Source: a virus. From it: a stretch of 62,771 nt of DNA. Below are positions 38,985 to 62,771 of this stretch, one piece after another. The first letter of the stretch is position 1. The number at the start of each line of letters is the position of its first letter. The stretch is from IMG/VR virus record IMGVR_UViG_3300036980_000377, positions 1-62,771 of that record. One strand, 5' to 3'. Position numbers and translations under genes: made by a program. The notes beneath the pieces are model-generated. The model did not search any database and was not told where the DNA came from. It worked only from the letters and a program-made list of their open reading frames with translations.

Positions 38985-38985
38985 A

Positions 38986-39062: not shown

Positions 39063-39107
39063 GATTTAAACAACTGTTTTACATGGTACTACTTATTCCA
39101 TTTTTAT

Positions 39108-39626: not shown

Positions 39627-39628
39627 AA

Positions 39629-39706: not shown

Positions 39707-39719
39707 GGGGTTTAAGTTT

Positions 39720-40238: not shown

Positions 40239-40252
40239 GCGAAGAGAAAAAA

Positions 40253-40328
40253 TGGGGAGTAGCTCAACTGGTAGAGCGCCGTCCTTTGGAGTCGGATGTT
40301 GGAGGTTCAAGTCCTTCCTCTCCAGCCA
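40253..40328 (+). tRNA. tRNA-Gln(TTG)
   Basis: Acceptor TGGGGAG/CTCTCCA, D-arm GCTC/GAGC, anticodon loop CTTTGGA on CCGTC/GTCGG (one T-T mismatch), T-loop TTCAAGT, encoded CCA. Confidence 0.85.
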
Positions 40329-40516
40329 TTATCATTACAACTTTAAGACCAGAGTTCCTTGATTGTATTCCTCAAGACTCAATAGGTGTACTTGAAAAGG
40401 AGTTCGGAAGATTCAAAACTAAGTGGATATCCATTCTACCGATCACAAAAGCGATGTTAGACGAAGGGATTAAACCCGGTGATTTATTTACATCTGGATA
40501 TTTTTATATGGATTAA
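40328..40516 (+). CDS. Hypothetical protein, about 62 aa, start at or near the tRNA-Gln CCA
   Basis: The frame reads I-I-I-T-T-L-R-P from ATT at the last base of CCA and ends 2 bases before tRNA-Thr. A soluble protein with several Ile, Asp and Lys. An ATG upstream would read through the tRNA and is rejected. If real, it uses a non-AUG start. Confidence 0.45.
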   Translation: MIITTLRPEFLDCIPQDSIGVLEKEFGRFKTKWISILPITKAMLDEGIKPGDLFTSGYFYMD

Positions 40517-40518
40517 AA

Positions 40519-40595
40519 GCCAGCGTAGCTCAGCAGGCCAGAGCGGAAGTTTTGTAAACTTCGGGTCGGGGGTTCGATTCCTCTCGCTGGCTCCA
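40519..40595 (+). tRNA. tRNA-Thr(TGT)
   Basis: Acceptor GCCAGCG/CGCTGGC, anticodon loop TTTGTAA on GAAGT/ACTTC, T-loop TTCGATT, encoded CCA. Confidence 0.93.
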
Positions 40596-40606
40596 CCCCA
40601 ATAACA

Positions 40607-40789
40607 ATGTTATCAAACTTGAAAATACAATGTCACCATTGCTTACGTGAGAGGGTAACCTTACGTGAGCATATGCAGTTGGGTGGAATCTGTCCCGCGT
40701 GTAATAAATACATAGTGATAGACTTTGAAAATGTACCGTTAGATGAACTTATAAAGGCGATCATTAATTTAGAAACTGGGCCGGTGTAA
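40607..40789 (+). CDS. Zinc-ribbon protein, 60 aa
   Basis: C-H-H-C near residue 9 and C-P-A-C near residue 29 form a ribbon-type site; a helical C-terminus follows. Its TAA stop is T8-A9-A10 of tRNA-Cys, a 10-base overlap. Confidence 0.6.
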   Translation: MLSNLKIQCHHCLRERVTLREHMQLGGICPACNKYIVIDFENVPLDELIKAIINLETGPV

Positions 40790-40853
40790 CCAAATGGCCG
40801 GGTGTTAGGTTGCAACCCTAACTACGCAGGTTCGATTCCTGTCGCCGGCTCCA
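40780..40853 (+). tRNA. tRNA-Cys(GCA)
   Basis: Acceptor GCCGGTG/CGCCGGC, anticodon loop TTGCAAC on TTAGG/CCTAA, T-loop TTCGATT, U73, encoded CCA. Confidence 0.93.
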
Positions 40854-40865
40854 AAAGGAACTATT

Positions 40866-41060
40866 ATGCTATGTCAGAGTTGCGAATTGCGCGAAGCTAC
40901 TCAGTCCTTCGCGCAGGATGAAATGAGTTTCATTCATGGAATGTCTCAACAGTGGTGTGATCACTGCGTTATCTCTACTCAACTAGATTTCGCGCGAAAG
41001 TCCGCTGAAAGAATTCCCGAGCTTGAAGAAGCGTTACGTAAATTAAATGAGCCCGAGTAG
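40866..41060 (+). CDS. Zinc-finger-like protein, 64 aa
   Basis: C-Q-S-C-E near the N-terminus and C-D-H-C near residue 31 are followed by a charged helix. AAAGGAACTATT precedes the ATG. Its stop is T8-A9-G10 of tRNA-Leu(GAG). Confidence 0.6.
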   Translation: MLCQSCELREATQSFAQDEMSFIHGMSQQWCDHCVISTQLDFARKSAERIPELEEALRKLNEPE

Positions 41061-41136
41061 CCGAATAGGTATAGGCGTCTGGTTGAGGGCCAGATACTCC
41101 TGGAGTGTGTAGGTTCAAGTCCTATCTCGGGCACCA
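41051..41136 (+). tRNA. tRNA-Leu(GAG)
   Basis: Class II tRNA. Acceptor GCCCGAG/CTCGGGC, anticodon loop TTGAGGG on TCTGG/CCAGA, long variable arm, T-loop TTCAAGT, encoded CCA. Confidence 0.92.
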
Positions 41137-41152
41137 ATATTATGAGGATTTA

Positions 41153-41413
41153 ATGCCCCTGCTACATTGCAATTCCTGTCACCATGAATGGGAAGGTCGA
41201 CTTAACTCTAAGTGTGACTGGTGTGGAGACTCGGGAAATGTCCTGGAAGAGAAGACTTCTTTGGAAAGGTTTATGGAGGGGGACTTAAAGGGTTTTATTG
41301 AGCGTTGGAAAAAGGAACGCTTGAATATCAAACCCGAACCAATTTTTGGTGAGACTATCAGAGGTGCAATCCGAATCGTTCGGGACTTCAAGGCGAGACG
41401 TAAAAAGGATTAG
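41153..41413 (+). CDS. Zinc-ribbon protein with helical tail, 86 aa
   Basis: C-N-S-C-H near residue 6 and C-D-W-C-G near residue 21 form a compact ribbon; the rest is a charged helix with W-K-K-E-R. ATG 41153 follows GAGGATTTA. Its TAG shares its G with the first base of tRNA-Leu(TAA). Confidence 0.6.
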   Translation: MPLLHCNSCHHEWEGRLNSKCDWCGDSGNVLEEKTSLERFMEGDLKGFIERWKKERLNIKPEPIFGETIRGAIRIVRDFKARRKKD

Positions 41414-41498
41414 CTCGGGTGGTGGAATCAGGCAGACACATCTGGTTTAAGCCCAGATGCCGAAAGGCGTGCGGGTTCAACTCCCGCCTCGAGCACCA
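41413..41498 (+). tRNA. tRNA-Leu(TAA)
   Basis: Class II. Acceptor GCTCGGG/CTCGAGC, anticodon loop TTTAAGC on TCTGG/CCAGA, variable arm, T-loop TTCAACT, encoded CCA. Confidence 0.92.
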
Positions 41499-41813
41499 AT
41501 GAAAAGAAAACATAAACTACATACGATGGAGTGGTGGTTTGTTAAGAGCAGACAAATCCCGATTCATTTTAAATGTCCATGTTGTAGTAAAAGGATTGAA
41601 TACAACGTGAACGTTTTTTGGAGCCACAGTATGTTGAATGTTTGCCCACATTGCTCTCAAGAATTTAACCTTTGCTTTGATTGCGGGTGCCCATGTCGAG
41701 ATCGGCTTGATTGTTTAACGATTCCAAGCGTTGGATCCATTTGGGTTGATCCCGTCTTTATTCATTATATATGCGATGATCCGTGGATTAAAAAACAGCA
41801 GGCTCTCAAGTAG
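41499..41813 (+). CDS. Zinc-ribbon protein of the expanded family, 104 aa
   Basis: ATG follows the tRNA-Leu CCA with no gap. C-P-C-C, C-P-H-C and D-C-G-C-P-C-R-D-R-L-D-C-L are present. There is no room for a ribosome site outside the tRNA, so translation may depend on tRNA processing or a leaderless mRNA. Confidence 0.65.
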   Translation: MKRKHKLHTMEWWFVKSRQIPIHFKCPCCSKRIEYNVNVFWSHSMLNVCPHCSQEFNLCFDCGCPCRDRLDCLTIPSVGSIWVDPVFIHYICDDPWIKKQQALK

Positions 41814-42052
41814 TGCAAATAAGAGTCTATTGCCCCCACTGTGAAGAGTTAGAAGTTCGCAACTTCGACTTTCGCGGGTGGATGAAAAACGAAAAATGCT
41901 TTCAAGTTTATTGTTTAAGAACCCGAATTCCATATAAAATAGTTTTTGATCGAGTCCATTGTCTTATATGTAACTGTGAGGATAAAAAAGTGAGCCCAGC
42001 GAAGAAAACCAAAAAACAGTCCCGTAAGTGGGCTCGTAACTCAACAGGTTAG
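41813..42052 (+). CDS. Zinc-ribbon protein of the expanded family, variant tail, 79 aa
   Basis: GTG overlaps the upstream TAG. C-P-H-C-E then F-D-R-V-H-C-L-I-C-N-C, the subgroup pattern of 38748 and 48111, then a Lys-rich tail. The last 23 bases lie inside tRNA-Lys. Confidence 0.6.
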   Translation: MQIRVYCPHCEELEVRNFDFRGWMKNEKCFQVYCLRTRIPYKIVFDRVHCLICNCEDKKVSPAKKTKKQSRKWARNSTG

Positions 42053-42105
42053 AGTACATGACTTTTAATCATGAAGCGGAGGTTCGAGTCCTCCCGGGCC
42101 TACCA
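42030..42105 (+). tRNA. tRNA-Lys(TTT)
   Basis: Acceptor GGGCTCG/CGGGCCT with two G-T pairs, anticodon loop CTTTTAA on CATGA/TCATG, T-loop TTCGAGT, encoded CCA. Confidence 0.9.
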
Positions 42106-42120
42106 ATAAGGAATTAAGAA

Positions 42121-42369
42121 ATGCGACTCAATGTGTGTAAGAAATGTCCAGATAGAGACGCGGAGTGTCTTTCTGAGGGAGAGTGTAGACACAAATTTTG
42201 TGTCGTATGTGCATTTCACCGCCGAAAGCTTTTCTTTTGGCATAAATGTTGCTCACCCCAGCTTTGCCATGCAATAACTGGACGAGCTAAAATGAGTTGT
42301 CATGAAGCACGAAAGTGGAGTTCAAATTGTGGCCATGAAGGTAACCTTTTTAAGTTGAGAGGAACTTAA
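42121..42369 (+). CDS. Cysteine-rich protein, N-terminal family signature, 82 aa
   Basis: The signature C-K-K-C-P-D-R-D-A-E-C-L is at the N-terminus, as in the 2683/2941 pair, followed by C-V-V-C, C-C and further Cys and His residues. AAGGAATTAAGA precedes the ATG. Confidence 0.6.
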   Translation: MRLNVCKKCPDRDAECLSEGECRHKFCVVCAFHRRKLFFWHKCCSPQLCHAITGRAKMSCHEARKWSSNCGHEGNLFKLRGT

Positions 42370-42560
42370 TGAAATCCCCATATGTAGGCACATTTGTCGG
42401 TTGGACTGACAAAGCAATTGAGTGTTTGGTTCAAGCAAGTGGTGTAGCTCGAGCTGCTCGTGATGATGAGGTAGAGGCTCTTATAGACCAGGCAAGAAAC
42501 TTGCTTCATAAAGCTAGGCAAAAAGCAAGCGATCAACCTGAATCAAAAAAGGTCCTGTAG
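42369..42560 (+). CDS. Hypothetical protein, 63 aa
   Basis: ATG overlaps the upstream TAA by one base. Helical, Ala/Lys-rich C-terminus. The TAG stop is T8-A9-G10 of tRNA-Ile(TAT). No family recognised. Confidence 0.55.
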   Translation: MKSPYVGTFVGWTDKAIECLVQASGVARAARDDEVEALIDQARNLLHKARQKASDQPESKKVL

Positions 42561-42625
42561 CTCAACGGTTAGAGCAGACTCCTTATAAGGGTCAGACTTA
42601 GGTTCAACTCCTAACGGGACTACCA
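42551..42625 (+). tRNA. tRNA-Ile(TAT)
   Basis: Acceptor GGTCCTG/CGGGACT, D-arm GCTC/GAGC, anticodon loop CTTATAA on GACTC/GGGTC, T-loop TTCAACT, encoded CCA. A UAU anticodon reading AUA is uncommon in bacteria, which usually use lysidine-modified CAU. Confidence 0.88.
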
Positions 42626-42626
42626 A

Positions 42627-42702
42627 GCCCCCGTAGTTCAGAGGATAGAACAACTGCCTTCTAAGCAGTAAGTCGCAAGTTCGAGTCTTGCCGGGGGTGC
42701 CA
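42627..42702 (+). tRNA. tRNA-Arg(TCT)
   Basis: Acceptor GCCCCCG/CGGGGGT, anticodon loop CTTCTAA on ACTGC/GCAGT, T-loop TTCGAGT, encoded CCA. Confidence 0.92.
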
Positions 42703-42708
42703 AATATT

Positions 42709-42787
42709 GAGCCCACATGTTCCAAGGACTTGGCGAGTTGGTCTCCAAAACCGACTGTGGTAGGTTCGATTCCTACTGGGTTCGCCA
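42709..42787 (+). tRNA. tRNA-Trp(CCA), irregular D-arm
   Basis: Acceptor GAGCCCA/TGGGTTC, anticodon loop CTCCAAA on TTGGT/ACCGA, T-loop TTCGATT, encoded CCA. The D region is 2-3 bases long for the class, does not form a clean four-pair stem, and lacks T8. It may be altered or degraded. Confidence 0.75.
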
Positions 42788-42788
42788 T

Positions 42789-42862
42789 AGTCCCGTAGCT
42801 CAATGGTAGAGCGCGCGGCTGATAACCGTGATACACAAGTTCGACTCTTGTCGGGACTACCA
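42789..42862 (+). tRNA. tRNA-Ile(GAT)
   Basis: Acceptor AGTCCCG/CGGGACT, anticodon loop CTGATAA on CGCGG/CCGTG, T-loop TTCGACT, encoded CCA. Confidence 0.92.
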
Positions 42863-42872
42863 AATTTTTATT

Positions 42873-43088
42873 ATGGGAAAGTCATACACAGGAAGACCCT
42901 TATGTGATGTCTACTGGCACTTCAGAGATGGACTGCCTTGGAGAAGACATTACAAACCATATTACAAGCCGAGTAAGTGGTTTAAGAAGTTACGCATCGC
43001 CAGAGTCAGAGCTCAAGAGAAGCAAGCTCTTAGGAGGGGACGAGAACTTCCCGTTAATAGGAAGGTTGATATTTGGAATTGGAATTAG
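42873..43088 (+). CDS. Basic hypothetical protein, 71 aa
   Basis: ATG 42873, ten bases after tRNA-Ile(GAT). Rich in Arg, Lys, Trp and Tyr. The final G of its TAG is the first base of tRNA-Tyr. No family recognised; nucleic-acid binding is possible. Confidence 0.5.
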   Translation: MGKSYTGRPLCDVYWHFRDGLPWRRHYKPYYKPSKWFKKLRIARVRAQEKQALRRGRELPVNRKVDIWNWN

Positions 43089-43172
43089 GAGGAGTGGCCG
43101 AGTGGTTAAAAGCGGCGGGCTGTAAACCCGCTCTCTCTGAGTTCGGAGGTTCGAATCCTTCCTCCTCCACCA
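43088..43172 (+). tRNA. tRNA-Tyr(GTA)
   Basis: Class II. Acceptor GGAGGAG/CTCCTCC, anticodon loop CTGTAAA on GCGGG/CCCGC, T-loop TTCGAAT, encoded CCA. Confidence 0.93.
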
Positions 43173-43176
43173 CTTT

Positions 43177-43476
43177 ATGACAACAAGAATTAATGAACCA
43201 CATGGCACTTGGTATTGGGAGGCCACGGCCAAGAATAAATCGTATGAATGGAATCCTCCCGGCTTCCCTAGTACCCAACGACAGTGCTTTTCGTGGAAGT
43301 GGAAGACGAATTTAAAACAGAACTGCGAGACCTGCAAATTACGAGTCGAGTGCCTAACAGTTGAAAGCTCGAAGTGCTCGATGATTTTAGAAACGCGGAT
43401 CACTTTGAGTGAAATTACTGGTATGGTAGATGAGTACGAAGGCTTTAAAAGATTTCCATATGAGGTGAAAGAATGA
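43177..43476 (+). CDS. Expanded-family protein with single C-terminal signature, 99 aa
   Basis: C-E-T-C-K-L-R-V-E-C-L near residue 50 is the clear family signature, but the two upstream knuckles are missing, leaving Trp-rich sequence. ATG is five bases after tRNA-Tyr. Possibly a reduced member with one metal site. Confidence 0.55.
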   Translation: MTTRINEPHGTWYWEATAKNKSYEWNPPGFPSTQRQCFSWKWKTNLKQNCETCKLRVECLTVESSKCSMILETRITLSEITGMVDEYEGFKRFPYEVKE

Positions 43477-43643
43477 TCTGGATGTGCAAAGTGTGCAAAG
43501 GAAAAGAGTCCGCTTGGAGTTTACCTGGAGAGGAAGAGGTTATTCTTTATTGTAATGAATGTAAAGAGGAGAGACCGTTTGAGCGGTGGAAGCATGGTCC
43601 ATCTAAAGAAGCTGAAACGGAAGATGTTTTTCTGATAGAATAA
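43473..43643 (+). CDS. Zinc-ribbon protein, 56 aa
   Basis: C-K-V-C-K near residue 5 and C-N-E-C-K near residue 26 give a minimal ribbon with an acidic tail. It overlaps the upstream gene by ATGA and ends 3 bases before tRNA-Ser. Confidence 0.55.
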   Translation: MIWMCKVCKGKESAWSLPGEEEVILYCNECKEERPFERWKHGPSKEAETEDVFLIE

Positions 43644-43646
43644 ATT

Positions 43647-43734
43647 GGAGGGATGGCCGAGTACGGCTTAAGGCGGCGGTCTTGAAAACCGCAGGGTGGA
43701 AGCCCCGTGGGTTCGAATCCTACTCCCTCCGCCA
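43647..43734 (+). tRNA. tRNA-Ser(TGA)
   Basis: Class II. Acceptor GGAGGGA/TCCCTCC, anticodon loop CTTGAAA on GCGGT/ACCGC, variable arm, T-loop TTCGAAT, encoded CCA. Confidence 0.92.
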
Positions 43735-43739
43735 ATCTT

Positions 43740-43814
43740 CGTGGAAGTACAACGGACAAGGCTCTGGCTCGTAATCAATCGAGGTGGGAAGCGAGTGGTT
43801 GACCAACTTCCACG
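43740..43814 (+). ncRNA. tRNA-sized hairpin element of unknown type
   Basis: CGTGGAAGT (43740-43748) pairs perfectly with ACTTCCACG (43806-43814), closing a 75-base element in a slot of the tRNA array. Inside, CTCG/CGAG closes a TAATCAAT loop. No T-loop (TTCRA) or encoded CCA exists, so it is not a normal tRNA. It could be a decayed tRNA or a separate small RNA. Confidence 0.4.
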
Positions 43815-43832
43815 TTAGTTAAATGAAAATAT

Positions 43833-43910
43833 GGCGAGATAGCTCAGTTGAGGTAGAGCGCGGGCCTGAAGAGTCCGGCGGCCTTGGTTCAACTCCAAGT
43901 CTCGCCACCA
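43833..43910 (+). tRNA. tRNA-Phe(GAA)
   Basis: Acceptor GGCGAGA/TCTCGCC, D-arm GCTC/GAGC, anticodon loop CTGAAGA on CGGGC/GTCCG, T-loop TTCAACT, encoded CCA. Confidence 0.9.
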
Positions 43911-43918
43911 GCTTATGC

Positions 43919-44005
43919 GGAGAGTTGGCCGAGCGGTTGATGGCAACGGTTTGCTAAACCGTCGAGGTAATACTCACGCAGGTTCGAATCCTGCACTCTC
44001 CGCCA
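43919..44005 (+). tRNA. tRNA-Ser(GCT)
   Basis: Class II. Acceptor GGAGAGT/ACTCTCC, anticodon loop TTGCTAA on an ACGGT/ACCGT stem, variable arm, T-loop TTCGAAT, encoded CCA. Confidence 0.92.
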
Positions 44006-44018
44006 ACTAATAGTCATT

Positions 44019-44102
44019 GGGAGTGTGGCGGAATGGCAGACGCGCTAGCCTTAGGAGCTAGTAGAGAAATCTGTGGGGGTTCAAGTCCCCCCTCTCCCAC
44101 CA
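44019..44102 (+). tRNA. tRNA-Leu(TAG)
   Basis: Class II. Acceptor GGGAGTG/CTCTCCC with one T-T mismatch, anticodon loop CTTAGGA on CTAGC/GCTAG, variable arm, T-loop TTCAAGT, encoded CCA whose last A is the first base of the next ATG. Confidence 0.9.
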
Positions 44103-52114: not shown

Positions 52115-52759
52115 ATGTTCATTCCGACTTGGAAATGGGAGGGTGGAGTAGCCCTCGTAGGGGCTGAGTCTAGTGGTAAGAGTACTCTGCGTCACAAGCT
52201 TCGCTCCCAACTAGGCGTTCCCATTGTTGGAGAGATTGTTCGTGGGACATTAAAAACAATGGAACTCGAAACTCCCCCAGCTTATGGGTGTGACTTTGGA
52301 CTAACCGCTAAATTTCAAGCTACGCTTCAACAAGAACGAGAAAGAGAAGAATCTAAACACCGTTGCTTTCTAGCCGATCGAAGCTCAATTGATAGTTATG
52401 CATATACTCTCGCTTGTTGTGGTCGCGATCCAAAATCTCAAGAGTGGCTAAAAGGATTTCAAAGAGAGAGCGTGGAGTACGCGAAACGGAGGTATAAACT
52501 TTTCATTGTAGTTCCCTCCGGAAAGTTTCCTGTTGTCCCTGATGGTGTGCGTAATCCTCTAACCTTCAATGCAATGATGATGCACTATATGATTTTAGGC
52601 TTACTGTCTTCACACGATCTCCCGTACTATATCTTACAATCTGTCAATATTGATTGTAGAACTGCAGAAGTCCTCGATGTCTTACAACAGCACGAACTTG
52701 TCGAGGAAGTTGACGGAGGTTGCAAATGTGGAATTGGATTCTTAAAATCGCAGACTTGA
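52115..52759 (+). CDS. NadR/AAA_28-like P-loop kinase
   Basis: 214 aa. G-A-E-S-S-G-K-S-T (Walker A near residue 16), V-G-E-I-V-R and F-L-A-D-R-S-S-I-D-S-Y-A-Y (a D-R-S substrate loop) match the AAA_28 family that includes the NadR ribosylnicotinamide kinase domain. It may phosphorylate a nucleoside, possibly in NAD salvage. A Cys pair sits at the C-terminus. Confidence 0.7.
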   Translation: MFIPTWKWEGGVALVGAESSGKSTLRHKLRSQLGVPIVGEIVRGTLKTMELETPPAYGCDFGLTAKFQATLQQEREREESKHRCFLADRSSIDSYAYTLACCGRDPKSQEWLKGFQRESVEYAKRRYKLFIVVPSGKFPVVPDGVRNPLTFNAMMMHYMILGLLSSHDLPYYILQSVNIDCRTAEVLDVLQQHELVEEVDGGCKCGIGFLKSQT

Positions 52760-53004: not shown

Positions 53005-53239
53005 AGAATGGTTTCAAACTGAAGTAATTCCAGAAGAGCAACGCCTTGAAGTCAAACCTATGAACATGAGAGGCATTATCTGGACTTGCTTTTCTCCAGC
53101 CAGCTCTAAGGCTCTCGCGATTGAAAACAAGGAGTTAAGACGTAAGATTGAACTTATGAACACTCGGATGGCAATCCTTTATAAGAGATACTTTCATAAA
53201 GATCATCCGACATGGAAACTACCTGATACGACTAAATAG
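52868..53239 (+). CDS. Lipoprotein, possible o-spanin (Rz1-like), 123 aa
   Basis: ATG 52868 gives a basic start, a hydrophobic core and the lipobox L-I-A-G-C near residue 22, then a Pro/Gln/Val-rich stretch. It overlaps the coiled-coil gene by 137 bases in another frame, as spanin genes often do. It is longer than most Rz1 proteins. It would fuse outer and inner membranes at lysis. Confidence 0.5.
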   Translation: MIKKKRTFQTVVLSWLIIGLIAGCTVAPQIQPQVQVAVKEEPILNEEWFQTEVIPEEQRLEVKPMNMRGIIWTCFSPASSKALAIENKELRRKIELMNTRMAILYKRYFHKDHPTWKLPDTTK

Positions 53240-55737
53240 TGACGACTCCATTTGGACTTAAGAAATTATCGAGAGCTGAATGTGAGCTTCTCAGAAAAAT
53301 GGCAGAAGAACGTTTTGACTTCTTCAACGCTGTATTTCTGGATACTGTTCTACAACCCTTTCACAAGAAGTGGTTTGAGTTTCAACAAGCCAATCAACGT
53401 ACACTAGTCCTAGGCCCTCGCGCAAGTTGGAAATGTGTCGCCAGTGATAGTTTAATTCCAACTGCCGAGGGTCTTTCTTATCTTCACGAGCTTCTCCCCT
53501 CCTCTGATCTTCCCTATACCGCCGAGATTCAATCCAACGTTAATTCGTGTCTAGGTATCACTGAAGCCACTCAAGCATTCTGTAATGGGCGTGAGGCGGG
53601 TCTTGAGATTGAAACCGAAGATGGTTTCACTTTATCTTGCGGACCTGCGCATGGAATCTTTGTTTGGGATGATCACTATCTAAGATTTAAAAAAGCGGAG
53701 CGTCTCAGGCCCGGAAGTCAAATCCTTTTTAAATGTGGATGGCACTCGTATGCAAACTCCGATAGTAATCCTTACAATGTCCCAAGAGGCCTTTGGTTCC
53801 AATTCCTCTCTTTCTTTTGGGCCGCGGGGTCGTCTCGCTGGGGAATCATATGGCGACAACGAACTTTCCGTAAGAAAGTGGCAACTCCACTATGGAAGTT
53901 TTTCGGGCATCGAGATTGGAGCAGTTTACCACCTCAAGTTGAAGAATTTTTGAGCACCAAAACCGAGGGTCAATTCCTTCCGCTATTTTTACGTCAGTGT
54001 ACAAAAGAGGCCGCAAAGGAGATTGCGAAAGCTTTTTGGTGGTACAATCAACATGTAAAGTTTACGGAGGAGCAAGCTAAGGAAGTTCAGATTTGGTTTC
54101 TTAATTTAGGTTTACCTTTGAAGAGGGTGGGATCAACTCTGCTTCATCGTAGCCCAGAACTACGGAAGCAGTTTTATAACTTTCTAAAAGATAATTCCCA
54201 ACCTCTTCCCTATACTGAAAATCAGATAGAGAATTTAGCTGATCTAACGCTATTAGAACTTAATAACAGCGCGTTTACTCCACCATTAATAAAACTACAT
54301 GCAAAGATTAAAGGTAGAAATGGATTCCAAAATCGTACCAGAAAAGCCCAAGAGTTCGTCAGTGAATACCTACAGTATGCCCCAAACATTAGACGCTTTG
54401 CCTTTATGTTCCGATTTCCCTTCTTTCTTCAAACTGTTAAGCAAGTCAATAAAAAAGAAATCACAACCCTCGACCTCGCAACCCGTGAAGGAAATTATAT
54501 TGCTAACGGGCTTATCACCCACAATTCAACAATTCTTGATAAGCATTATAGCATATGGCGTGCTCTACGAGATCCAAATATACGAATTGGAATTGTATCT
54601 AAATCGTCGCTGCTGTCGTCCAGTTTCGTCTCTCAGATTAAGCACGTTCTTGAAAGCAACCAGCGGATCCGGATGGTCTGGCCTGACTTAATCAATCCAG
54701 CTCAAGCGCCTAAATGGAATAACAACGAAGTTACCCTTATTCGCCCTCTCTCCAGTTCTGAAGCAACATTCACAGCTATGGGAGTTGGTACAACACTTGC
54801 TGGGCGCCACTTTGATATTCTCATCTTCGACGACGTAGTTGATACAGACTGTCAAGCATCCCCCATCCTTAGAAAAAGGATTTGGGATTGGTTTAGATTT
54901 GTCGCAATGCAAACACTCAGCGTAGCTCAGTATACTCAAGCACACATCATTGGGACCCTATATCACCCCGAAGATTTGTATCACCGAGTACTCGATTTCG
55001 AAAAAGACGGAAAAGGTAACTGGCTAAGTAGTATCCAACCGGCTATTAACCCAGACGGAACCTCTTTCTGGGAAGAAGCGTTTCCACTAACCGAACTACA
55101 AAGTATTGAAGCTACTTACGGCGTCGACGTCTTTAAACTCCAATATCAAAATGATCCTGAGTTTGGAGGGACTGGACTTTTAGACTGGTCATTCTTTGAT
55201 GATAGTTACTACGATACTGATGATGTCAACACCGATAAACTCGATATTGTTATGGGTGTAGATCTTGCCGCACCTGGTACAGATAAAACATCTCATCACA
55301 GCTCATTTGCAATTGTTATTGTTGGGACTGACTCACAATCCAGGAAGTCTTATGTCATTGATGCCATTAAACGTAAGAGCTTACGCATGGCAGATCAGCG
55401 AGATATGATCATCGACCGTTATCAAATTTATCCCAGTATGCACTCGATTCAGGTGGAAGCATATGCAGTTCAAACATATTTCCATGAATATTTGAATGAA
55501 GTAGAAATCCCGCTTCCAATTTATCGAGTCCAAACCGGAGGGTCAAAAGAGGGGCGCTACGATTTTATTGTTTCTTTGATTCAAAACGGTAGACTTTTCT
55601 TTAAGGAAAACCTACATCGTGAACTAATTGAAGAGATTTGCAACTTCCCCCAAACCTCCGCAGACTTAATCGATGCGTTGTATCTTGCTTTAAAGGGAAT
55701 CCAACGAGAGCCCCGTCTCCGATTCTTGACCATGTAA
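53239..55737 (+). CDS. Terminase large subunit with intein
   Basis: 832 aa precursor, GTG start overlapping the upstream TAG. The ATPase Walker A region reads G-P-R-A-S-W-K, is interrupted by an intein at residues 66-429, and resumes S-T-I-L-D-K. Walker B is I-L-I-F-D-D-V (after the intein). The nuclease domain has M-G-V-D-L-A-A-P and later D-A-L-Y-L-A-L. The spliced protein of about 468 aa pumps DNA into proheads and cuts it. Confidence 0.88.
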   Translation: MTTPFGLKKLSRAECELLRKMAEERFDFFNAVFLDTVLQPFHKKWFEFQQANQRTLVLGPRASWKCVASDSLIPTAEGLSYLHELLPSSDLPYTAEIQSNVNSCLGITEATQAFCNGREAGLEIETEDGFTLSCGPAHGIFVWDDHYLRFKKAERLRPGSQILFKCGWHSYANSDSNPYNVPRGLWFQFLSFFWAAGSSRWGIIWRQRTFRKKVATPLWKFFGHRDWSSLPPQVEEFLSTKTEGQFLPLFLRQCTKEAAKEIAKAFWWYNQHVKFTEEQAKEVQIWFLNLGLPLKRVGSTLLHRSPELRKQFYNFLKDNSQPLPYTENQIENLADLTLLELNNSAFTPPLIKLHAKIKGRNGFQNRTRKAQEFVSEYLQYAPNIRRFAFMFRFPFFLQTVKQVNKKEITTLDLATREGNYIANGLITHNSTILDKHYSIWRALRDPNIRIGIVSKSSLLSSSFVSQIKHVLESNQRIRMVWPDLINPAQAPKWNNNEVTLIRPLSSSEATFTAMGVGTTLAGRHFDILIFDDVVDTDCQASPILRKRIWDWFRFVAMQTLSVAQYTQAHIIGTLYHPEDLYHRVLDFEKDGKGNWLSSIQPAINPDGTSFWEEAFPLTELQSIEATYGVDVFKLQYQNDPEFGGTGLLDWSFFDDSYYDTDDVNTDKLDIVMGVDLAAPGTDKTSHHSSFAIVIVGTDSQSRKSYVIDAIKRKSLRMADQRDMIIDRYQIYPSMHSIQVEAYAVQTYFHEYLNEVEIPLPIYRVQTGGSKEGRYDFIVSLIQNGRLFFKENLHRELIEEICNFPQTSADLIDALYLALKGIQREPRLRFLTM
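53434..54525 (+). other. Intein (364 aa) in the terminase Walker A motif
   Basis: Cys1 in C-V-A-S-D-S-L-I-P-T-A-E-G (block A), block B G-L-E-I-E-T-E-D-G-F with a G-P-A-H histidine, and block F/G T-L-D-L-A-T-R-E-G-N-Y-I-A-N-G-L-I-T-H-N, with Ser as +1 residue. The extra 200 residues resemble a LAGLIDADG endonuclease (F-L-S-F-F-W-A-A-G-S-S), but the motif aspartates are Ala, so cleavage activity is probably lost. Confidence 0.88.
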
Positions 55738-55804: not shown

Positions 55805-57223
55805 GTGGGTGTTCTTTTAGATTTAGTAAAGCATCTCCAACCAGTTGAAAAGAAACGGATTATTTCTCCCGCAGAGTCCAGCGCAGAACAACGTAATCAA
55901 TCACGTCAAACTCGAGACCTTCAATGGGAGTATTATAGTCCTCCAACTGATTTTAAAATGTTACTCTCAACCTATGTTACCAACGCGTGGGTTTATTCCG
56001 CAGTATATCTTATCGCAAGCACCGCAGCCTCAGTCCCGTTTCGTCTTTTCACCCGCAGATCAAAACAAATAATTGACCCCAATCACTTTCTTCAAGACGT
56101 ATTCGTTCAACCAAATAATTGGATGACTTTTACAGATCTTTTGGAGTCTACCTTTATTTGTTTGGAGTTAGTTGGAAATGCGTTTTGGGAAATCGTTTAC
56201 AATGAGTATGGTATGGTTAAGGAAATTTATTTCCTCGATCCCGCAAAGGTGCACATCCTCCCCGACGAGGAGTACTTCATTCGAGGTTATGAATATCATG
56301 TAAACGGGCAAGTCATCAGATATGATCCGGGTGAGATTGTTCATTTTAAATACGCCAATCCTCTAAATCAGTATTGGGGCATTGGAAGTATTCAAGCTAT
56401 TTGGGATCAAGTAATTCTTGATTCATACGCGAAGGAATACAATGCTAGATTCTTTCTTAACGATGCAACTCCAAGCGGTGTTATCTCAACTCCCCGCCCC
56501 CTTTCAGATAACGCTTTCAACTCGCTTCAGAATCGTTGGGAATCTAGACACCAAGGACACAAACGTTCGTTTAAGATTGCTGTTTTAGACGACGGTATGA
56601 AATTTGATTCCATCGCAATGACTCCACGCGACGCTTCCTTTATTGAAATGAGGAAGATTGTTCGTGATGCTCTCTTCGTCGGAACTGGCGTGCCACCCGT
56701 TTTAGCGGGAGTTCCTGACGTTGCTAATTACTCCACGGCACGTGTAGCTCAAAGTATTTTCTATGACAGCACTATTGCACCCAAGTTAAGGAAAGTTGGG
56801 GAAGCCATTGATATGCAAATTATCAAACCCCAAGATAACTTCGTGATGGGCGCCTTCGATACTTCAGTCGCGCCGATCAACATCATCAAGCTTTCTGCTA
56901 ACTCTCGTATTGTTGAGCGGTTGGTCAAAGCTAAGCTGGTTACGATGGATGAAGCTAGAGCACTTCTAGGCCTCCCTCCTCTACCGAAAGATCAAGAAGA
57001 AGATCCAAACCTTGATATTTCAGGTTTAGGCGGAGATGCAACAACAGGTGAGGCCGAGAGTGATGATTCAGGAGGTCAAGATGCAACGGGCCAAGGTGGA
57101 GATGAATCCGGAGGCAGTGGACCAACTCCTAGTTATAGCGGACCCCGAGCTCCTGCGACCCCAAAACCATCTACAACCGTTAGCGCATTTAAAGGTGCAA
57201 AAGGGGCTGGAAAGAAAAAATGA
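55805..57223 (+). CDS. Portal protein (HK97 type)
   Basis: 472 aa; GGGGGG upstream supports GTG 55805. A long N-terminal Y-V-T-N-A-W-V-Y-S-A-V segment, F-L-D-P-A-K-V, G-E-I-V-H-F-K-Y-A-N-P and W-G-I-G-S-I match the Phage_portal family. The C-terminal 90 residues are Gly/Ser/Asp-rich. It forms the dodecameric DNA gate of the head. Confidence 0.85.
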   Translation: MGVLLDLVKHLQPVEKKRIISPAESSAEQRNQSRQTRDLQWEYYSPPTDFKMLLSTYVTNAWVYSAVYLIASTAASVPFRLFTRRSKQIIDPNHFLQDVFVQPNNWMTFTDLLESTFICLELVGNAFWEIVYNEYGMVKEIYFLDPAKVHILPDEEYFIRGYEYHVNGQVIRYDPGEIVHFKYANPLNQYWGIGSIQAIWDQVILDSYAKEYNARFFLNDATPSGVISTPRPLSDNAFNSLQNRWESRHQGHKRSFKIAVLDDGMKFDSIAMTPRDASFIEMRKIVRDALFVGTGVPPVLAGVPDVANYSTARVAQSIFYDSTIAPKLRKVGEAIDMQIIKPQDNFVMGAFDTSVAPINIIKLSANSRIVERLVKAKLVTMDEARALLGLPPLPKDQEEDPNLDISGLGGDATTGEAESDDSGGQDATGQGGDESGGSGPTPSYSGPRAPATPKPSTTVSAFKGAKGAGKKK

Positions 57224-58293
57224 AATTAAATCAGATTACCCCCGAATCGATTCGGCAAGCTTCGGATCGTGAAGTGCTTGCACTTCACTGGCGGATGCAT
57301 CAACTAGCCGCACCCTTCATAAAAGCTCAAAATTTCGATGACCCCAGATTTCAAAACATTGTATCCAGACACCGTCTAATTGTTTTTGAAATGATTCGGA
57401 GGGGTCTACGATTTAAAGTCAATGACGAGTTAGACAAACGCTCAGCTCCCGAAATTTCCGCTTTCCTTGAAGTGTTCACCAAGAGTATACCTAGTCGTCT
57501 TGGAGATATGTCCAAGCTTGAATTAATCCGTATGCACAACCAAGTACACTCTGTTTGGGAGGTCATCCATTCTAAAGATGTCTCGATTACTCAACAAGAG
57601 CAGTTGTGGAATTGGCACAAGCTAATTATTCGAGAATTAGAGAAGCGTGGAATAGAGCATCCCACAAACTGGGATTCTCTAGATCAGCCATTGGGCCGAG
57701 CACTAGGCTCCCCCAATATGTACCCATCTGGAGAGGAAGTTGGCAATTGGGTATTTATCGAAGAGGTGGTCCAAAACGTTCCAAAAGAAATTACAATTGA
57801 AAAACAGATTGTATTAGTTGACTCCGAAAAGAAATTGATCTATCTTTCGGATGTGGGCGGACGGCAGTTAATTAAAGTTATGTACTTCCGAATCCTTCGT
57901 CAATTCCCCCGGGAAGAGTGGAGTGCTTTTAGAGCCGCTAAAATGGATGAAATTGAGAGCGTCAACGTATCCTATGACCTTTGTCTTAAAAAACTTGAAC
58001 CACTTTGGACGGTACAATTGAGTCTTCAATTTGGAGATTTGTGCTTGGTAAAACCCTATCTTTATCTTGTAGGTGGTGTTGTAACTCAGGGCGCATCTAA
58101 AAACGATATTGACGTTCTTTTACGGGGTGGGCTCGAAGCTCCGCTAGAAGATAAGGTCTTTGGCACGTTCGTTAATCAATTCCCAGAACGACTGAAAAGT
58201 CGTTTCTCAAAATTAAGAGATGAAGGTTTAGGACCTTACACGAGTTATGTAGGAGTTTATTCATTACACCTCGTTAAGGGGGAGGATAAATGA
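57220..58293 (+). CDS. Head-module protein with nucleotidyltransferase-like C-terminus
   Basis: 357 aa, ATG overlapping the portal stop. The first 180 residues are helical with repeated R-M-H and R-E-L-E-K-R-G segments. Near residue 285, Y-L-V-G-G-V-V-T-Q-G-A-S-K-N-D-I-D-V-L-L resembles the G-G...G-S-x-x-D-x-D core of nucleotidyltransferases. It is followed by the ligase-like gene with a 4-base overlap, so the two may act together on nucleic-acid ends. Inference. Confidence 0.6.
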   Translation: MKLNQITPESIRQASDREVLALHWRMHQLAAPFIKAQNFDDPRFQNIVSRHRLIVFEMIRRGLRFKVNDELDKRSAPEISAFLEVFTKSIPSRLGDMSKLELIRMHNQVHSVWEVIHSKDVSITQQEQLWNWHKLIIRELEKRGIEHPTNWDSLDQPLGRALGSPNMYPSGEEVGNWVFIEEVVQNVPKEITIEKQIVLVDSEKKLIYLSDVGGRQLIKVMYFRILRQFPREEWSAFRAAKMDEIESVNVSYDLCLKKLEPLWTVQLSLQFGDLCLVKPYLYLVGGVVTQGASKNDIDVLLRGGLEAPLEDKVFGTFVNQFPERLKSRFSKLRDEGLGPYTSYVGVYSLHLVKGEDK

Positions 58294-60962
58294 AGGACCG
58301 TAAAGAAAATATAATTGACGCACAACGTCAAGCGAAAGCTGATAAGTTACTCGGCCCCGGCTATTTTGTTTATCCCCCGAAGACCACACTTTCAGTTACA
58401 TCTTACCGAGAGGCTGAAGTCTTTTCGGAACAACAGCTTATTGAGTACATCCACGGTTGGGCTCTTAAGGTCGGACAGGACCATCTTGAAGTTGCAATTC
58501 AAGGTAAGTATGATGGAAATTCTTGTTTTCTACAAAGAGATATGGATGGAAATTTCTTCGCATTCACTGAAGATGGTTCCGATATTACTGAACGAATTCC
58601 CCACTTAATTCAACAAGCGAAGAGTCAATTTCCAAAGATTTGTTATATCCTTTTGGGGGAGATCGAGAAGTGGGTCTCAGTGGGTGGAAAGAAAGTACAT
58701 CAAGGTCGTGAATTTGTAGCTGGAGAACTCCACAGTAAGAATCCAACCAACGATAAAGAATATGTTTGGAACATATATGACTGTATTTGGTTTGATGGTA
58801 AAGATCTCCACAAAGAAGATTACTCCGCGAGATATGATATTCTCGAAAAAAACTTTAAAATTAGACAGTCTGTCTTCACCGCCCCATCTCCTGGATTCAA
58901 TCTCGTCCCTACAAATATTTGTAAGACGGACGAAGAAGTCCGTAGGGTCATTCGCACCTTAGTTAGATTTGAATATCTTGAAGGTGCGATGATTAAACGT
59001 TGGGATGGATATAAGTTTGAATTGGATGGGCGTACTACTGATATGGTGAAGTTTAAAAAGTACGCGGAGGGCCATTTCTGGGTCATTGATAAACGCCTCA
59101 TCCGGGGTGCTCAAAACACTTTTCAATATAAAGTGGCTCTTGAAGTCCTCCCCGCGGAAGAGGAAGATTGTGATCCAAGTGTTATAATCGACTTTAAAGG
59201 CAAGAAAGCAATGCCGGTAGCTGATTCCTTCAATACCAACGTTGCCGCGAAGGTTGGGGATGTCGTAACAGTACAATTCCATAATCTATTTGTAACAAAG
59301 AATCCCGAGGGAAAGATTCGGATCACTTTGTATGAACCAAAAGTTTATGAAAATCGTACGGTAGCAAACCCCAAAGAACTTCCCGATACGATTTCAACAA
59401 TAATGAAGATTGGAATGGATTCAACACTCTTACGATACAAGTCTCAAGACGTTATCCCATTTGAACTCGTCAAGCAAATCAGTATTTTTGAGCAGTATCC
59501 TGATGAAGATAAAGAGTATAAGTTCATTATCCACAATCATTGGAGAGGTAAGACTGTTCATGGCGATTTGCGAATGGAACACACGAATCAACAATACCTT
59601 CTTGGGTATACTCTCAATATTCAAATGCCTGGAAAAGCACCAGAAGTCACAACTCATCAGCAAGCGAAGGATGAAATCACCAACAAGGAGCTTTGGAAGT
59701 TCAACGCCCACACTGGAGAGTTTCAACCGAGACAGACTCGTGGGGGATTAAAGCCAGCTACTTCCATTGTTGTTGAATTGAAAGAACCTGAACCCCTTCA
59801 GTGGCTTACTTTTCAAGGGGTGGTGAATCCTGGTGGAGTAGGTTCAACCAAAGAGTTTCCAGGAGTATTTGTAATTGTAGCGAATGGAACCGTCGAGTAT
59901 GGTTTCAGGAATGGATATTTTCACGAGTACTTCTTCCACTGCCCGACCTGGAAGAACGGGGGACAAAGACTCCTATTCCGCCAATTATCTTCAGATATTG
60001 GCGACCCCGCCGCAGATGGCAAGAGTTTAGTCCCCATTTCTAAATTCCTACAATGGTCGTTTGAAACATCAAACCCTATCTCCGAATTTGAACTTATTGG
60101 GGGTTCAATTATTTGTGACTACGGCGAAATTTTCTTGCCTGAATTTTTGACCCCAGATTACGAGGGTCAATTAATCGTGCACAAAGATGTTCTACCTCCT
60201 TCTGAACCTGCTTCAATCCGCACTCCTACTATGTGGTTGCTCATTAAACCCAATGATGCAATTCCCTATGTATTATCTCGACGTGCGGTGAAGATGGAAA
60301 GAATGACACCCTTCGGAGCTTCTGCACTTCCGAAATCAATTCGCCACCAAATTCCCAAAGAGTATCAGTACTGGACAATGCATGATCCTGCTATTGCTTT
60401 AAAGATCAGGCAAGAGTTAGTCGATGCTATTACCAAGAAACAGGTTGAGATTAACTACGGAGAAGTCTTCAAAGATACAATGTCTGAAGAAAAAGAGATG
60501 ATTCAGAAGGAGGGGTTAGATAGGCCCTTTCTTCTAAACCGTAGAACTTGGAGAGGTCCGATTGTTGTAAGAGTTGGTTATAGTGCTGAGATGTATGATC
60601 TCTGGTTTGATATGGGCGACGAAGCTTATCTGTTTGCCTTCAATCAAGATCCACGAAGTGGTCATGCAACTGGAGTATTAATAAAGGTTCAAGATAAATC
60701 TTTAATGGATAAAGTTGGAGAACAACCGCCTGGTACTTTATTAAACCCGAATAAAAAAATCCCCGTGACTATCGAACGACTACAAAAGGGGAAGGCTTTA
60801 ATGTACTTCGATCAACCTGGTTTAAAGAAGTTCCAGGTTAAAACCCCAGAGTGGAAGGGGCTTTTTCTACTAGAACAGGACGGAAATACAAATATCTGGA
60901 CTCTTAAAGAAACAGCCAGCGTAGGTGGTCCTGTCGAGAACGTTCAAGATGCCCCATCTTAA
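58290..60962 (+). CDS. ATP-dependent DNA ligase-like protein fused to LigD phosphoesterase-like domains
   Basis: 890 aa. Ligase motifs in order: I K-Y-D-G-N (near residue 73), III L-L-G-E-I-E, IV E-G-A-M-I-K-R, V D-M-V-K-F-K-K. An OB-like region follows. Near residue 420, F-I-I-H-N-H-W-R-G-K-T-V-H-G-D-L-R-M-E resembles the His-x-Asp-Leu-Arg centre of the LigD 3'-phosphoesterase. A second, weaker copy near 750 (F-L-L-N-R-R-T-W-R-G) lacks the His/Asp. Location between portal and protease genes is unusual. Confidence 0.7.
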   Translation: MKDRKENIIDAQRQAKADKLLGPGYFVYPPKTTLSVTSYREAEVFSEQQLIEYIHGWALKVGQDHLEVAIQGKYDGNSCFLQRDMDGNFFAFTEDGSDITERIPHLIQQAKSQFPKICYILLGEIEKWVSVGGKKVHQGREFVAGELHSKNPTNDKEYVWNIYDCIWFDGKDLHKEDYSARYDILEKNFKIRQSVFTAPSPGFNLVPTNICKTDEEVRRVIRTLVRFEYLEGAMIKRWDGYKFELDGRTTDMVKFKKYAEGHFWVIDKRLIRGAQNTFQYKVALEVLPAEEEDCDPSVIIDFKGKKAMPVADSFNTNVAAKVGDVVTVQFHNLFVTKNPEGKIRITLYEPKVYENRTVANPKELPDTISTIMKIGMDSTLLRYKSQDVIPFELVKQISIFEQYPDEDKEYKFIIHNHWRGKTVHGDLRMEHTNQQYLLGYTLNIQMPGKAPEVTTHQQAKDEITNKELWKFNAHTGEFQPRQTRGGLKPATSIVVELKEPEPLQWLTFQGVVNPGGVGSTKEFPGVFVIVANGTVEYGFRNGYFHEYFFHCPTWKNGGQRLLFRQLSSDIGDPAADGKSLVPISKFLQWSFETSNPISEFELIGGSIICDYGEIFLPEFLTPDYEGQLIVHKDVLPPSEPASIRTPTMWLLIKPNDAIPYVLSRRAVKMERMTPFGASALPKSIRHQIPKEYQYWTMHDPAIALKIRQELVDAITKKQVEINYGEVFKDTMSEEKEMIQKEGLDRPFLLNRRTWRGPIVVRVGYSAEMYDLWFDMGDEAYLFAFNQDPRSGHATGVLIKVQDKSLMDKVGEQPPGTLLNPNKKIPVTIERLQKGKALMYFDQPGLKKFQVKTPEWKGLFLLEQDGNTNIWTLKETASVGGPVENVQDAPS

Positions 60963-61034: not shown

Positions 61035-62186
61035 ATGACAGAACCTGCCGTGGTATTAGGAGATAAAGGGTTGACCTTCGAAGATGCGATTTTCGACATC
61101 AAAAAAGCTCAGGATACTATTGGAGAAACAGATGGCGAACTAAAACGCATCGTAACTGGCTATGCGGCTGTTGCGGACGTCGTGGACTCACAGTACGAAA
61201 TCATCACCAAAGAGGCTTTGGATGGTGCTTCGAAAGATTTACTATCTTATACAACCGTACTGTACAACCACGATCCTGATCGGCCAATTGGTAAAGTTCT
61301 CGAGGCGCGGCCAGAAGGAACAGGACTTTTTGTAAAAGTTCAAATTTCCTCTTCGGAGGATGAGATTTGGAATAAGATCACTGAAGGTATTATTTCCAAG
61401 TTTAGTTTCCGGGGAACTGTAACTGACTATTCTGAGCAATTTGATAAGAGCCATGACCGGTATATAACCGTAATCAAGGGTTTTCGCGTCTTTGAAATCT
61501 CTCTCGTATCCGTCCCAGCTAATCCACACGCACGGACGTTACATTATTATCTTTCTAAAGCTTTAGAAACAATACGTAAAGAATCTCAGTCTCGGGGAAA
61601 CCCCGAGAAGGCTGAGGAAAAAACTCCACAAACAGGAGGGTCTACTAAAACTATGGACCAAGATACGGTGAAATCCGCAGAAAGGATGAAGCTTATTTCA
61701 AGTTTATGTGATAAGCTAATCGCCGCCCTCCAAGATATGCCGCATGTGGATGCACGGTTACTCGCCGTTGCAAAACGGATTAAGGCTGAAGCCCAGGCTG
61801 AAGCTACTGGTGATGAGAAGTACCCACAACCACAACCAGCAGAAACAGATCTGGATATCGAAGGCTACAATCCAGCAATGGAAGGCTTGAAGAGTCGCTT
61901 ATCGGCACAAGAAGATAAGCTGACTTCTCTCGAAAAGAGTATGACCGACCTCTCACAAACTCTCTCGGACTCTGTCACAGAGACTGTGAAAGGTTTAGCT
62001 GAAACAATGATCACCGAGCGCCTCACCCAACTCGACGAGAAGTTTGACGTACAGTCAGACGTTATCAAGAGCTTTGCTGAGCTGCTCGACTCACTGCGGC
62101 CTGCCCTGGGTTTGGATGCCATTGTCGAAAAGACTGAGGCAACTGAAAAAACCGAGGAACAAAATAATCAAGGGGGTGAAACCTAA
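61035..62186 (+). CDS. Prohead protease with C-terminal scaffold-like region
   Basis: 383 aa. G-Y-A-A-V-A-D-V-V-D-S, the active-site His in Y-N-H-D-P-D-R-P-I-G, and the Ser in S-K-F-S-F-R-G-T with I-S-L-V-S-V-P-A-N-P match the HK97 prohead protease (U35). From residue 190 the protein is a coiled, Glu/Thr/Ser-rich tail resembling a scaffold fused to the protease. TTTGGAGGATATGAA precedes the ATG. Confidence 0.85.
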   Translation: MTEPAVVLGDKGLTFEDAIFDIKKAQDTIGETDGELKRIVTGYAAVADVVDSQYEIITKEALDGASKDLLSYTTVLYNHDPDRPIGKVLEARPEGTGLFVKVQISSSEDEIWNKITEGIISKFSFRGTVTDYSEQFDKSHDRYITVIKGFRVFEISLVSVPANPHARTLHYYLSKALETIRKESQSRGNPEKAEEKTPQTGGSTKTMDQDTVKSAERMKLISSLCDKLIAALQDMPHVDARLLAVAKRIKAEAQAEATGDEKYPQPQPAETDLDIEGYNPAMEGLKSRLSAQEDKLTSLEKSMTDLSQTLSDSVTETVKGLAETMITERLTQLDEKFDVQSDVIKSFAELLDSLRPALGLDAIVEKTEATEKTEEQNNQGGET

Positions 62187-62771
62187 TGGCTAACGAGAAT
62201 CTGGATAAGGCGAAATCACTGATTAGCCAGTTGGTTAGCGATTACTCCGCTAAGAAAGACAACGACAAAGTCGAGAAGATCCTTGGCGACGTAATGACTG
62301 AACTTAAAAAGGCGAACCCCGGAGACAGAAAGGGGCGCTTTGATGTTAAAGATGCAAGAGATGCGAGAAACGCAGCTCCTACACCAAACATCGGCATCGA
62401 AGCAATGCTGAGTTATCCTACCGATGACCCAGTCGTGAAATCATTCCAACGCATGAATGATGACGTTCTTCTTCTGTCACAGATGTTAGACACACGTCCT
62501 GAAGACCTCAAGCTATATAAGCAGCTTCGTGCGCATCCGCTCATGAAGGCTGACGACCATTTTGATTCAACCGGCAGAGCAACAGTTCCTTACACTGGAA
62601 CTGAAGCCTACGGTTCAGACTGGATTCCGCTTGGATTTTCTACTGACCTGATCGACATCATCCGGCTTCAACTAAAAGTGGCAGCATTGCATCGTCGGAT
62701 CAATATGCCTACACCGCAGTACAAGATCCCAGTTGTAGGAAGCACAGATATGACTGCTTACCTCGTGGGTG
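62186..62771 (+). CDS. Major capsid protein (HK97 fold), partial
   Basis: ATG overlaps the protease TAA; the gene runs off the right edge after 195 codons. A helical N-terminus (delta-domain-like) is followed at about residue 135 by an E-A-Y-G-S-D-W-I-P-L-G-F-S-T-D-L-I-D segment, P-T-P-Q-Y-K-I-P-V-V-G, typical of HK97-type capsid N-arms. GGGGGTGAAACCTA precedes the start. Confidence 0.8.
   Translation, partial: MANENLDKAKSLISQLVSDYSAKKDNDKVEKILGDVMTELKKANPGDRKGRFDVKDARDARNAAPTPNIGIEAMLSYPTDDPVVKSFQRMNDDVLLLSQMLDTRPEDLKLYKQLRAHPLMKADDHFDSTGRATVPYTGTEAYGSDWIPLGFSTDLIDIIRLQLKVAALHRRINMPTPQYKIPVVGSTDMTAYLVG

Follow-up and report, generated by a model that had tools for sequence, protein, structure and literature searches.

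The window analysed here is the virus record IMGVR_UViG_3300036980_000377 at its full 62,771 bases, and the subject is a pair of genes in its head gene cluster. They encode a 357-amino-acid (aa) protein with a predicted nucleotidyltransferase domain (NT) and an 890-aa protein joining a predicted ATP-dependent DNA ligase (LIG) to LigD-type phosphoesterase domains (PE1 and PE2; together PE). In the initial annotation both genes lay between the portal gene and the prohead protease gene, with overlaps of 4 bases, and these coordinates were exact. The overlaps lie at the portal/NT and NT/ligase–PE junctions, and the protease gene starts 72 bases further on. The features of the locus are as follows.

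55805–57223, plus strand: portal protein gene (PF04860, E = 2.7e-63), with a 4-base overlap with the NT gene
57220–58293, plus strand: NT protein gene, 357 aa, with two helical repeats, a degenerate NT-like copy and the NT domain
57250–57675, plus strand: two helical repeats (about aa 11–72 and 91–152), helices in the predicted model
57733–58005, plus strand: likely degenerate NT copy, the first of two (about aa 172–262), from the alignment, lacking GG and DxD
57997–58290, plus strand: predicted Pol-beta-type nucleotidyltransferase domain, with G285-G286 and D296-x-D298; the third acidic position is S348
58290–60962, plus strand: ligase–phosphoesterase protein gene, 890 aa (PF01068, E = 6e-16)
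58485–59063, plus strand: ligase adenylation domain (aa 66–258), with motif I K73 at 58506–58508
59064–59387, plus strand: ligase OB-fold domain (aa 259–366), from the profile alignment with archaeal DNA ligase and the 6nhz fold alignment
59511–59999, plus strand: PE1, predicted LigD-type 3'-phosphoesterase domain, with H417, H424, D426 and R428
60207–60929, plus strand: PE2 region (aa 640–880), second PE-like domain, from the profile match to 3p43 and 3p4h, lacking the HxDxR centre
61035–62186, plus strand: prohead protease gene (PF04586, E = 1.1e-13; PF14550, E = 2.7e-6)
62186–62770, plus strand: start of a probable capsid protein gene, truncated at the end of the window and homologous to an open reading frame (ORF) of the relative L001 (11836–13218)

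The L001 homologue of the capsid gene comes directly after the L001 protease; a Pfam scan of the window's capsid-gene fragment returned no family. The gene order small terminase subunit (TerS), kinase, large terminase subunit (TerL), portal, NT, LIG/PE, protease, capsid is kept in two viral relatives, L001 and L005. This arrangement is far from chance, because both keep it while their ligase–PE proteins are only about 58% identical to that of the window.

The 890-aa protein matched PF01068 with 59.2 bits against a family cut-off of 26.2. Ligase motifs I (K73), III (E124), IIIa (D164), IV (E231) and V (K254) are all present and are followed by the OB-fold, so that the four motifs first read from the letters (I, III, IV and V) are joined by a fifth. 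A phmmer search of the Protein Data Bank (PDB) with the window protein alone gave no matches, and profiles were needed. A LIG profile of 20 relatives matched archaeal DNA ligases (E = 3.1e-31), with the alignment reaching across the OB-fold, and the mycobacterial LigD ligase 1vs0 (E = 2.2e-15). An AlphaFold2 model of the protein (mean predicted local distance difference test score, pLDDT, 80.9; predicted template modelling score, pTM, 0.47) matched a Thermococcus ligase in Foldseek (E = 1.8e-16), and the mycobacterial LigD ligase 6nhz superposed on model residues 19–371 with a Z score of 20.7 and a root-mean-square deviation (rmsd) of 3.1 over 267 residues. The window protein is thus predicted to contain an ATP-dependent DNA ligase core, which would join nicks through lysyl-AMP.

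Relatives were collected from scans of viral contigs and genome contigs and grouped into lineages, defined as ligase clusters at 80% identity; some loci are fragments. The family comprises 67 such lineages. Loss of the catalytic lysine in relatives, together with absence from virions, had been named as what would refute the initial idea of packaged repair enzymes; the lysine count came out in favour of that idea, the motif I lysine being kept in 63 of 66 ligase lineages, with Glu in one and an alignment gap in two, and the motif takes the form KxDG in 45 and KxNG in 19. Over the same lineages, motif III Glu occurs in all 66, motif IV Glu in 65 with one gap, and motif V Lys in 65 with one gap. 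The patterns used to recover loci held motif IV (SEGA), part of the E546 motif and, in one scan, motif I, and never the portal or protease; the conservation of motif IV, E546-motif and motif I residues is therefore partly by construction. The ratio of nonsynonymous to synonymous substitution rates (dN/dS) was 0–0.126 in 29 of 39 domain comparisons; seven of the other ten were saturated and three had no domain pair. These values point to strong purifying selection on the module domains in the relatives compared, those of the window itself being too distant for the test.

Both phosphoesterase domains have as their nearest solved structures 3p43 and 3p4h, which we take to be archaeal LigD-type 3'-phosphoesterases; the viral PE differs in being duplicated, elongated and set inside a head-operon protein. 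The PE1 profile matched 3p4h (E = 0.0011) and 3p43 (E = 0.022) around H-x-D-x-R. The phosphoesterase-like H-G-D-L-R centre that the initial annotation had picked out lies in this LigD-type domain as H417...H424-G-D426-L-R428, equivalents of the Mn triad and Arg (His42, His48, Asp50 and Arg52). Across 61 lineages, the His42 equivalent is present in 45, His48 in 60, Asp50 in 61 and Arg52 in 59. The Pfam family PF13298 did not match the window's PE1 domain and exceeded its cut-off in none of the 50 viral records in a six-frame search; among family members it was found in 7 of 24 at E ≤ 0.1, with L058 above cut-off (36.4 versus 31.1 bits). PE2, near the C-terminus, gave stronger profile matches than PE1 (3p43, E = 1.3e-7; 3p4h, E = 2.3e-6) and lacks the HxDxR centre. 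It is predicted to be a second, non-catalytic PE copy.

Taken by itself, the window protein gives a weak NT assignment, which becomes secure at the family level, as judged from sequence profiles. Pfam found no nucleotidyltransferase family in the window protein, and phmmer against the PDB gave one chance match only (E = 0.16). A profile of 33 family members, in contrast, placed DNA polymerase beta at the top of the PDB (E = 0.0067), with polymerases X and lambda and an MNT antitoxin further down, and PF01909 was found in 5 of the 33. The NT hidden Markov model (HMM) matched the window protein with E = 2e-25, the profile including that protein itself. Among 61 lineages, the motif Gly is present in 61, the first Asp in 60, the second in 61 and the third in 47; the window has G285, D296 and D298. 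The nucleotidyltransferase-like core proposed at the outset therefore stands through the family profile and the GG/DxD motif, while the window protein by itself argues for it weakly. The model of the NT protein (mean pLDDT 87.4, pTM 0.57) gave no Foldseek match at E ≤ 0.001 for the whole protein, and a second fold search, dominated by the helical half, returned the MNT antitoxin 8xeo at a level not above background (Z 5.5, rmsd 3.3, 82 aligned). Because these fold searches gave no significant match, the assignment rests on profile and motif. A helical domain precedes NT on the N-terminal side in 70 of 72 ORFs carrying both. The region between helices and NT domain is probably a degenerate NT copy, as suggested by the alignment and by a weak NT-profile match in the L001 homologue (E = 0.0027). 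The NT protein also matched Pyr_excise, the pyrimidine dimer glycosylase family, with E = 2.6e-4 (21.7 bits versus a cut-off of 23); this was rejected, as it covers only 26 residues in a single helix, one that occurs repeatedly within the helical domain.

Domain content was scored with LIG, PE and NT HMMs built from the same loci later scanned with them. NT, LIG and PE occur together in 56 of the 67 lineages, LIG and PE in five, NT and LIG in five and LIG only in one, and in 36/67 all three lie within one ORF. A first scan of genome contigs yielded no loci; a second, with another alignment, yielded 16, on contigs titled Methanosarcinales, Methanophagales, Omnitrophota, Myxococcales, Deltaproteobacteria, Archaeoglobales, Thermoprotei, Hecatellales, 'Bacteroides sp.' and others, titles in which binning errors are possible. 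ANMV-1, a virus of uncultured methane-seep archaea, carries the same family as AJP62006.1 ('ATP-dependent DNA ligase'), with NT, LIG and PE in one 866-aa protein immediately after a portal gene. It differs from the window in having a single gene rather than two, 27% identity (tblastn) and a portal of another Pfam family; that portal (L003, KP703175.1 1913–3193) is labelled 'MutT-like phage hydrolase' and matches PF06381 with E = 3.2e-22. The word 'ligase' does not occur in the text of the ANMV-1 genome paper. A tblastn match in a Rhizobium phage (L004, 342 aa) was set aside as an ordinary ligase and is outside the lineage counts; the annotation of its 13.8 kb stretch shows neither portal nor protease.

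Several loci have unusual architectures. Broken ligase–PE reading frames were found at L015 (4519–9911; also L025), L090 (647–6919), L096 and L029; the breaks in L015 and L090 are insertions of about 2 to 3.5 kb, that of L015 beside ligase motif IIIa. An Rfam search of four loci and the window detected only the window's tRNAs, and the L015 interruption was not matched to a known intron. The L053 ligase ORF (2–2917) has LAGLIDADG and intein-splicing matches (PF14528, E = 1.2e-4; PF14890, E = 0.0039) and perhaps contains an intein. L020 (7279–13023) encodes a 1,914-aa protein with two ligase domains (aa 155–321 and 847–1019) and NT in between. In L099 (4599–8237, contig titled Archaeoglobales) a beta-lactamase-superfamily domain (PF12706, E = 1e-14) lies N-terminal to NT and LIG in one chain. 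The 1,604-aa protein of L010 (5451–10265) has about 550 extra aa between its N-terminal domain and NT, with a PEGA domain (E = 1.5e-4); by eye, the extra region looks peptidase-like. A complete Methanosarcinales chromosome contains short pieces of LIG and PE2 (L102, 8680–9569), possibly what is left of a decayed provirus.

The neighbourhood of the module was analysed in 50 viral records searched whole, the window among them; these records may be incomplete. A portal was detected at E ≤ 0.001 in 29 (PF04860 in 26, PF06381 in 3), and in 28 of these it lies upstream of LIG/PE on the same strand, at a distance of 0.6–10.2 kb; L017, with its portal on the opposite strand, is the exception. Counting only portals over the family cut-off, which eight of the 29 do not reach, the figure is 20/21. 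Under a uniform-placement null, which ignores gene clustering, 4.0 would be expected and P(≥28 of 29) = 2e-25. The initial annotation had remarked that repair-type enzymes are not expected among head genes and had proposed such a survey; the placement is real and recurrent. Gene order and domain content, then, show NT, LIG and PE to be a conserved unit that follows the portal in the head gene cluster of widely differing tailed viruses. The relative G002 has two ligases: the family one sits at 54.5 kb, within the head cluster, and the other, a 428-aa frame, is found at 17.7 kb, some 31 kb away from the portal.

In many of these records the module is joined to the prohead protease. The XkdF protease family PF14550 was found at E ≤ 0.001 in 30 of the 50 records, 26 of them over cut-off. 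Fusions were counted from the 23 matches of at least 64.8 bits; of the seven left out, G001, G002 and G017 are over cut-off but are separate, window-like protease genes, and four fall below it. The XkdF domain ends 1–15 residues from the ORF C-terminus in 23/23 of these records, and in 22 the ORF also holds NT, LIG, PE or PE2 (20/23 counting LIG and PE only). The PF04586 protease is over cut-off in seven records, as it is in the window (two matches below cut-off were dropped). In L062 the protease lies at the opposite end of the record, perhaps because the genome is circular and permuted. L016 (7113–10133) encodes a PE and XkdF protein right after the portal, with a degenerate ligase-like region that gives no PF01068 match. 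The methyltransferase family PF02086 exceeds its cut-off in 11 records of the 50; judged by ORF length, nine of these have it inside a module ORF or its XkdF part. In L050, a single 2,838-aa chain carries NT, LIG, PE and XkdF together with five C5-methylase matches. Altogether, methyltransferases are fused to the module in about 10/50 records. The phage phiPsa374 was considered as a cultured example of a methyltransferase–protease fusion and rejected, its protease gene being short and standing alone.

Elsewhere in the window, an AAA_28 or thymidylate-kinase-like gene (52115–52759) lies between the TerS and TerL genes, as in L001 and L005. The large terminase subunit (53239–55737) has an intein-like insertion at aa 111–429 (PF14890, E = 1.5e-4, below cut-off), and the L001 and L005 terminases are of comparable length (841 and 837 aa). 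A family A DNA polymerase (14494–17001; PF00476, E = 7e-69) carries an N-terminal uracil-DNA-glycosylase-superfamily domain (PF03167, E = 5e-17). There are 21 tRNA genes within 10 kb (34219–44102).

Prohead proteases work inside the assembling head, and cargo fused to them should therefore enter the prohead. The fusion to the protease is the strongest argument, drawn from the genomes, that the module is packaged. The initial suggestion that these enzymes might be packaged gains from it: relatives have the same enzymes fused to a C-terminal prohead protease, like the peptidases of polyvalent proteins. According to the text of PMC5512222 (Iyer et al. 2017), polyvalent proteins are large multi-enzyme chains, with fused methyltransferases, that are predicted to be injected with the DNA; those packaged in capsids have an assemblin-like peptidase that, when present, is always C-terminal, and DdrB of phage P1 is processed and packaged in the head. 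In relatives the viral module likewise joins unrelated enzymes in a single chain, which carries its head-maturation-type peptidase C-terminally (22/23 records). It differs in having an NT-LIG-PE unit as its core, often split into separate genes; the window would be a split version of the polyvalent arrangement, because its three genes are separate. The main text of PMC5512222 names neither LigD nor XkdF and, in the passages listed, uses 'ligase' only for RNA ligases. MuF-fused effectors are described as packaged in heads in the text of PMC9503650, and XkdF has been proposed as the head protease of some jumbo phages in that of PMC7824862. A literature search, covering mostly open-access papers without their supplements, found no description of an NT-LIG-PE head-operon module, which would thus be a previously undescribed form of capsid-delivered polyvalent enzymes.

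The module also resembles bacterial LigD, the POL-PE-LIG enzyme of non-homologous end joining (NHEJ), in combining a nucleotide-adding enzyme, a 3'-phosphoesterase and a minimal ATP-dependent ligase core. Its predicted polymerase is a minimal Pol-beta NT, whereas that of LigD is of the archaeo-eukaryotic-primase type, and its PE lacks His84 and Tyr88 and has an extra non-catalytic copy. No LigD-type primase POL family came up when the two window proteins were scanned against Pfam at E ≤ 1. Ku (PF02735) was found in 0/50 viral records, the window included, although the records may be incomplete and the host may supply a Ku. The comparison to a virion 'NHEJ kit' in the usual sense is not supported, given the lack of Ku, the non-LigD polymerase, the PE without His84/Tyr88 and the window NT with S348. 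A role at double-strand breaks is less likely than repair of nicks, gaps and 3' ends, because no Ku was found in the 50 records.

With moderate confidence, we infer that the two window genes encode a capsid-delivered module for healing and sealing DNA ends. The proteins would enter the prohead with the scaffold or the protease, separately in the window and as a protease-processed fusion in relatives. They would remain in the mature head, leave through the portal together with the DNA, and act in the new host on incoming viral DNA ahead of any viral gene expression. At nicks and breaks PE would trim 3' ends that are blocked, NT may fill in or add nucleotides, and LIG would seal, so that damage gathered in the particle is repaired, or nicks and ends of the genome are closed.

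Several observations weigh against this proposal. The window enzymes are encoded apart from the protease, and the window NT lacks the third acidic residue (S348), where Asp is found in 47/61 lineages. The first PE-motif His is absent in 16/61 lineages in the alignment used. At the positions of His84 and Tyr88 the window PE1 has E501 and W505; across the 61 lineages the former is Gln in 30, Glu in 21, His in 5 and another residue in 5, and the latter is Trp in 61/61 and Tyr in none. In the text of PMC8656161, mutants of Pseudomonas aeruginosa LigD at His42, His48, Asp50, His84 and Tyr88 are all inactive. Because the metal residues are kept and His84 and Tyr88 are replaced, PE1 should bind metal with an altered phosphate pocket.

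The position in the head cluster would also fit an enzyme used during packaging. Nicks or branches stall phage packaging motors, and in T4 both ligase and endonuclease VII are required late in infection. The module could therefore work at the portal or prohead in the infected cell, ridding the concatemer of nicks, gaps and blocked 3' ends for the terminase motor, with the fused protease then destroying or releasing the enzymes at head maturation. This explanation draws on the same genomic evidence, the portal neighbourhood and the protease fusion. The methyltransferases in the same chain, in about 10/50 records, better fit protection of incoming DNA, and packaging could be served by ligases of the virus or the host with no need for one in the head operon; we regard packaging-time repair as unlikely. 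An ordinary cytoplasmic ligase of late repair or replication, merely transcribed with the head genes, is decidedly unlikely. The window record does have just one ATP-dependent ligase match, which could double as the replicative ligase, but the portal-linked position is kept in 28/29 records, relatives fuse the enzyme to the prohead protease, and G002 has its second ligase far from the portal. An RNA role, in which tRNAs of the host or the virus are repaired or modified as infection begins to counter RNase-based immunity, seems very improbable: LigD PE domains do act on 3'-ribonucleotides (text of PMC8656161), the relative L012 has a weak RNA_ligase match and the window has its 21 tRNA genes, but that match is below cut-off (18 versus 27 bits) and the best family, PDB and fold matches are all to DNA ligases. 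Least probable of all is that enzyme folds were exapted as internal head or scaffold proteins without catalysis, as PE2, the degenerate NT copy and the L016 protein might suggest, given the strong purifying selection and the near-invariance of the catalytic residues of LIG and of H424, D426 and R428 of PE1 over 61–66 lineages.

To our knowledge, phages are generally assumed to depend on host or newly made enzymes for mending DNA at entry. The wider form of capsid delivery, which we put forward tentatively and hold at slightly less than even probability, is that many uncultured tailed viruses of bacteria and archaea carry in the capsid a Ku-independent repair machine of Pol-beta NT, minimal ligase and variant PE, of origin independent of LigD; a fused prohead protease would process this machine, and on injection it would heal and seal the genome before expression begins. 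Alongside LigD, it would be a second case in nature of nucleotide addition, 3'-end healing and sealing being combined, in viruses of both bacteria and archaea, and would account for a group of giant head-operon proteins, most of them unannotated. A ligase and end-healing unit tied to the portal and prohead protease makes the idea of virion-carried repair enzymes directly testable.

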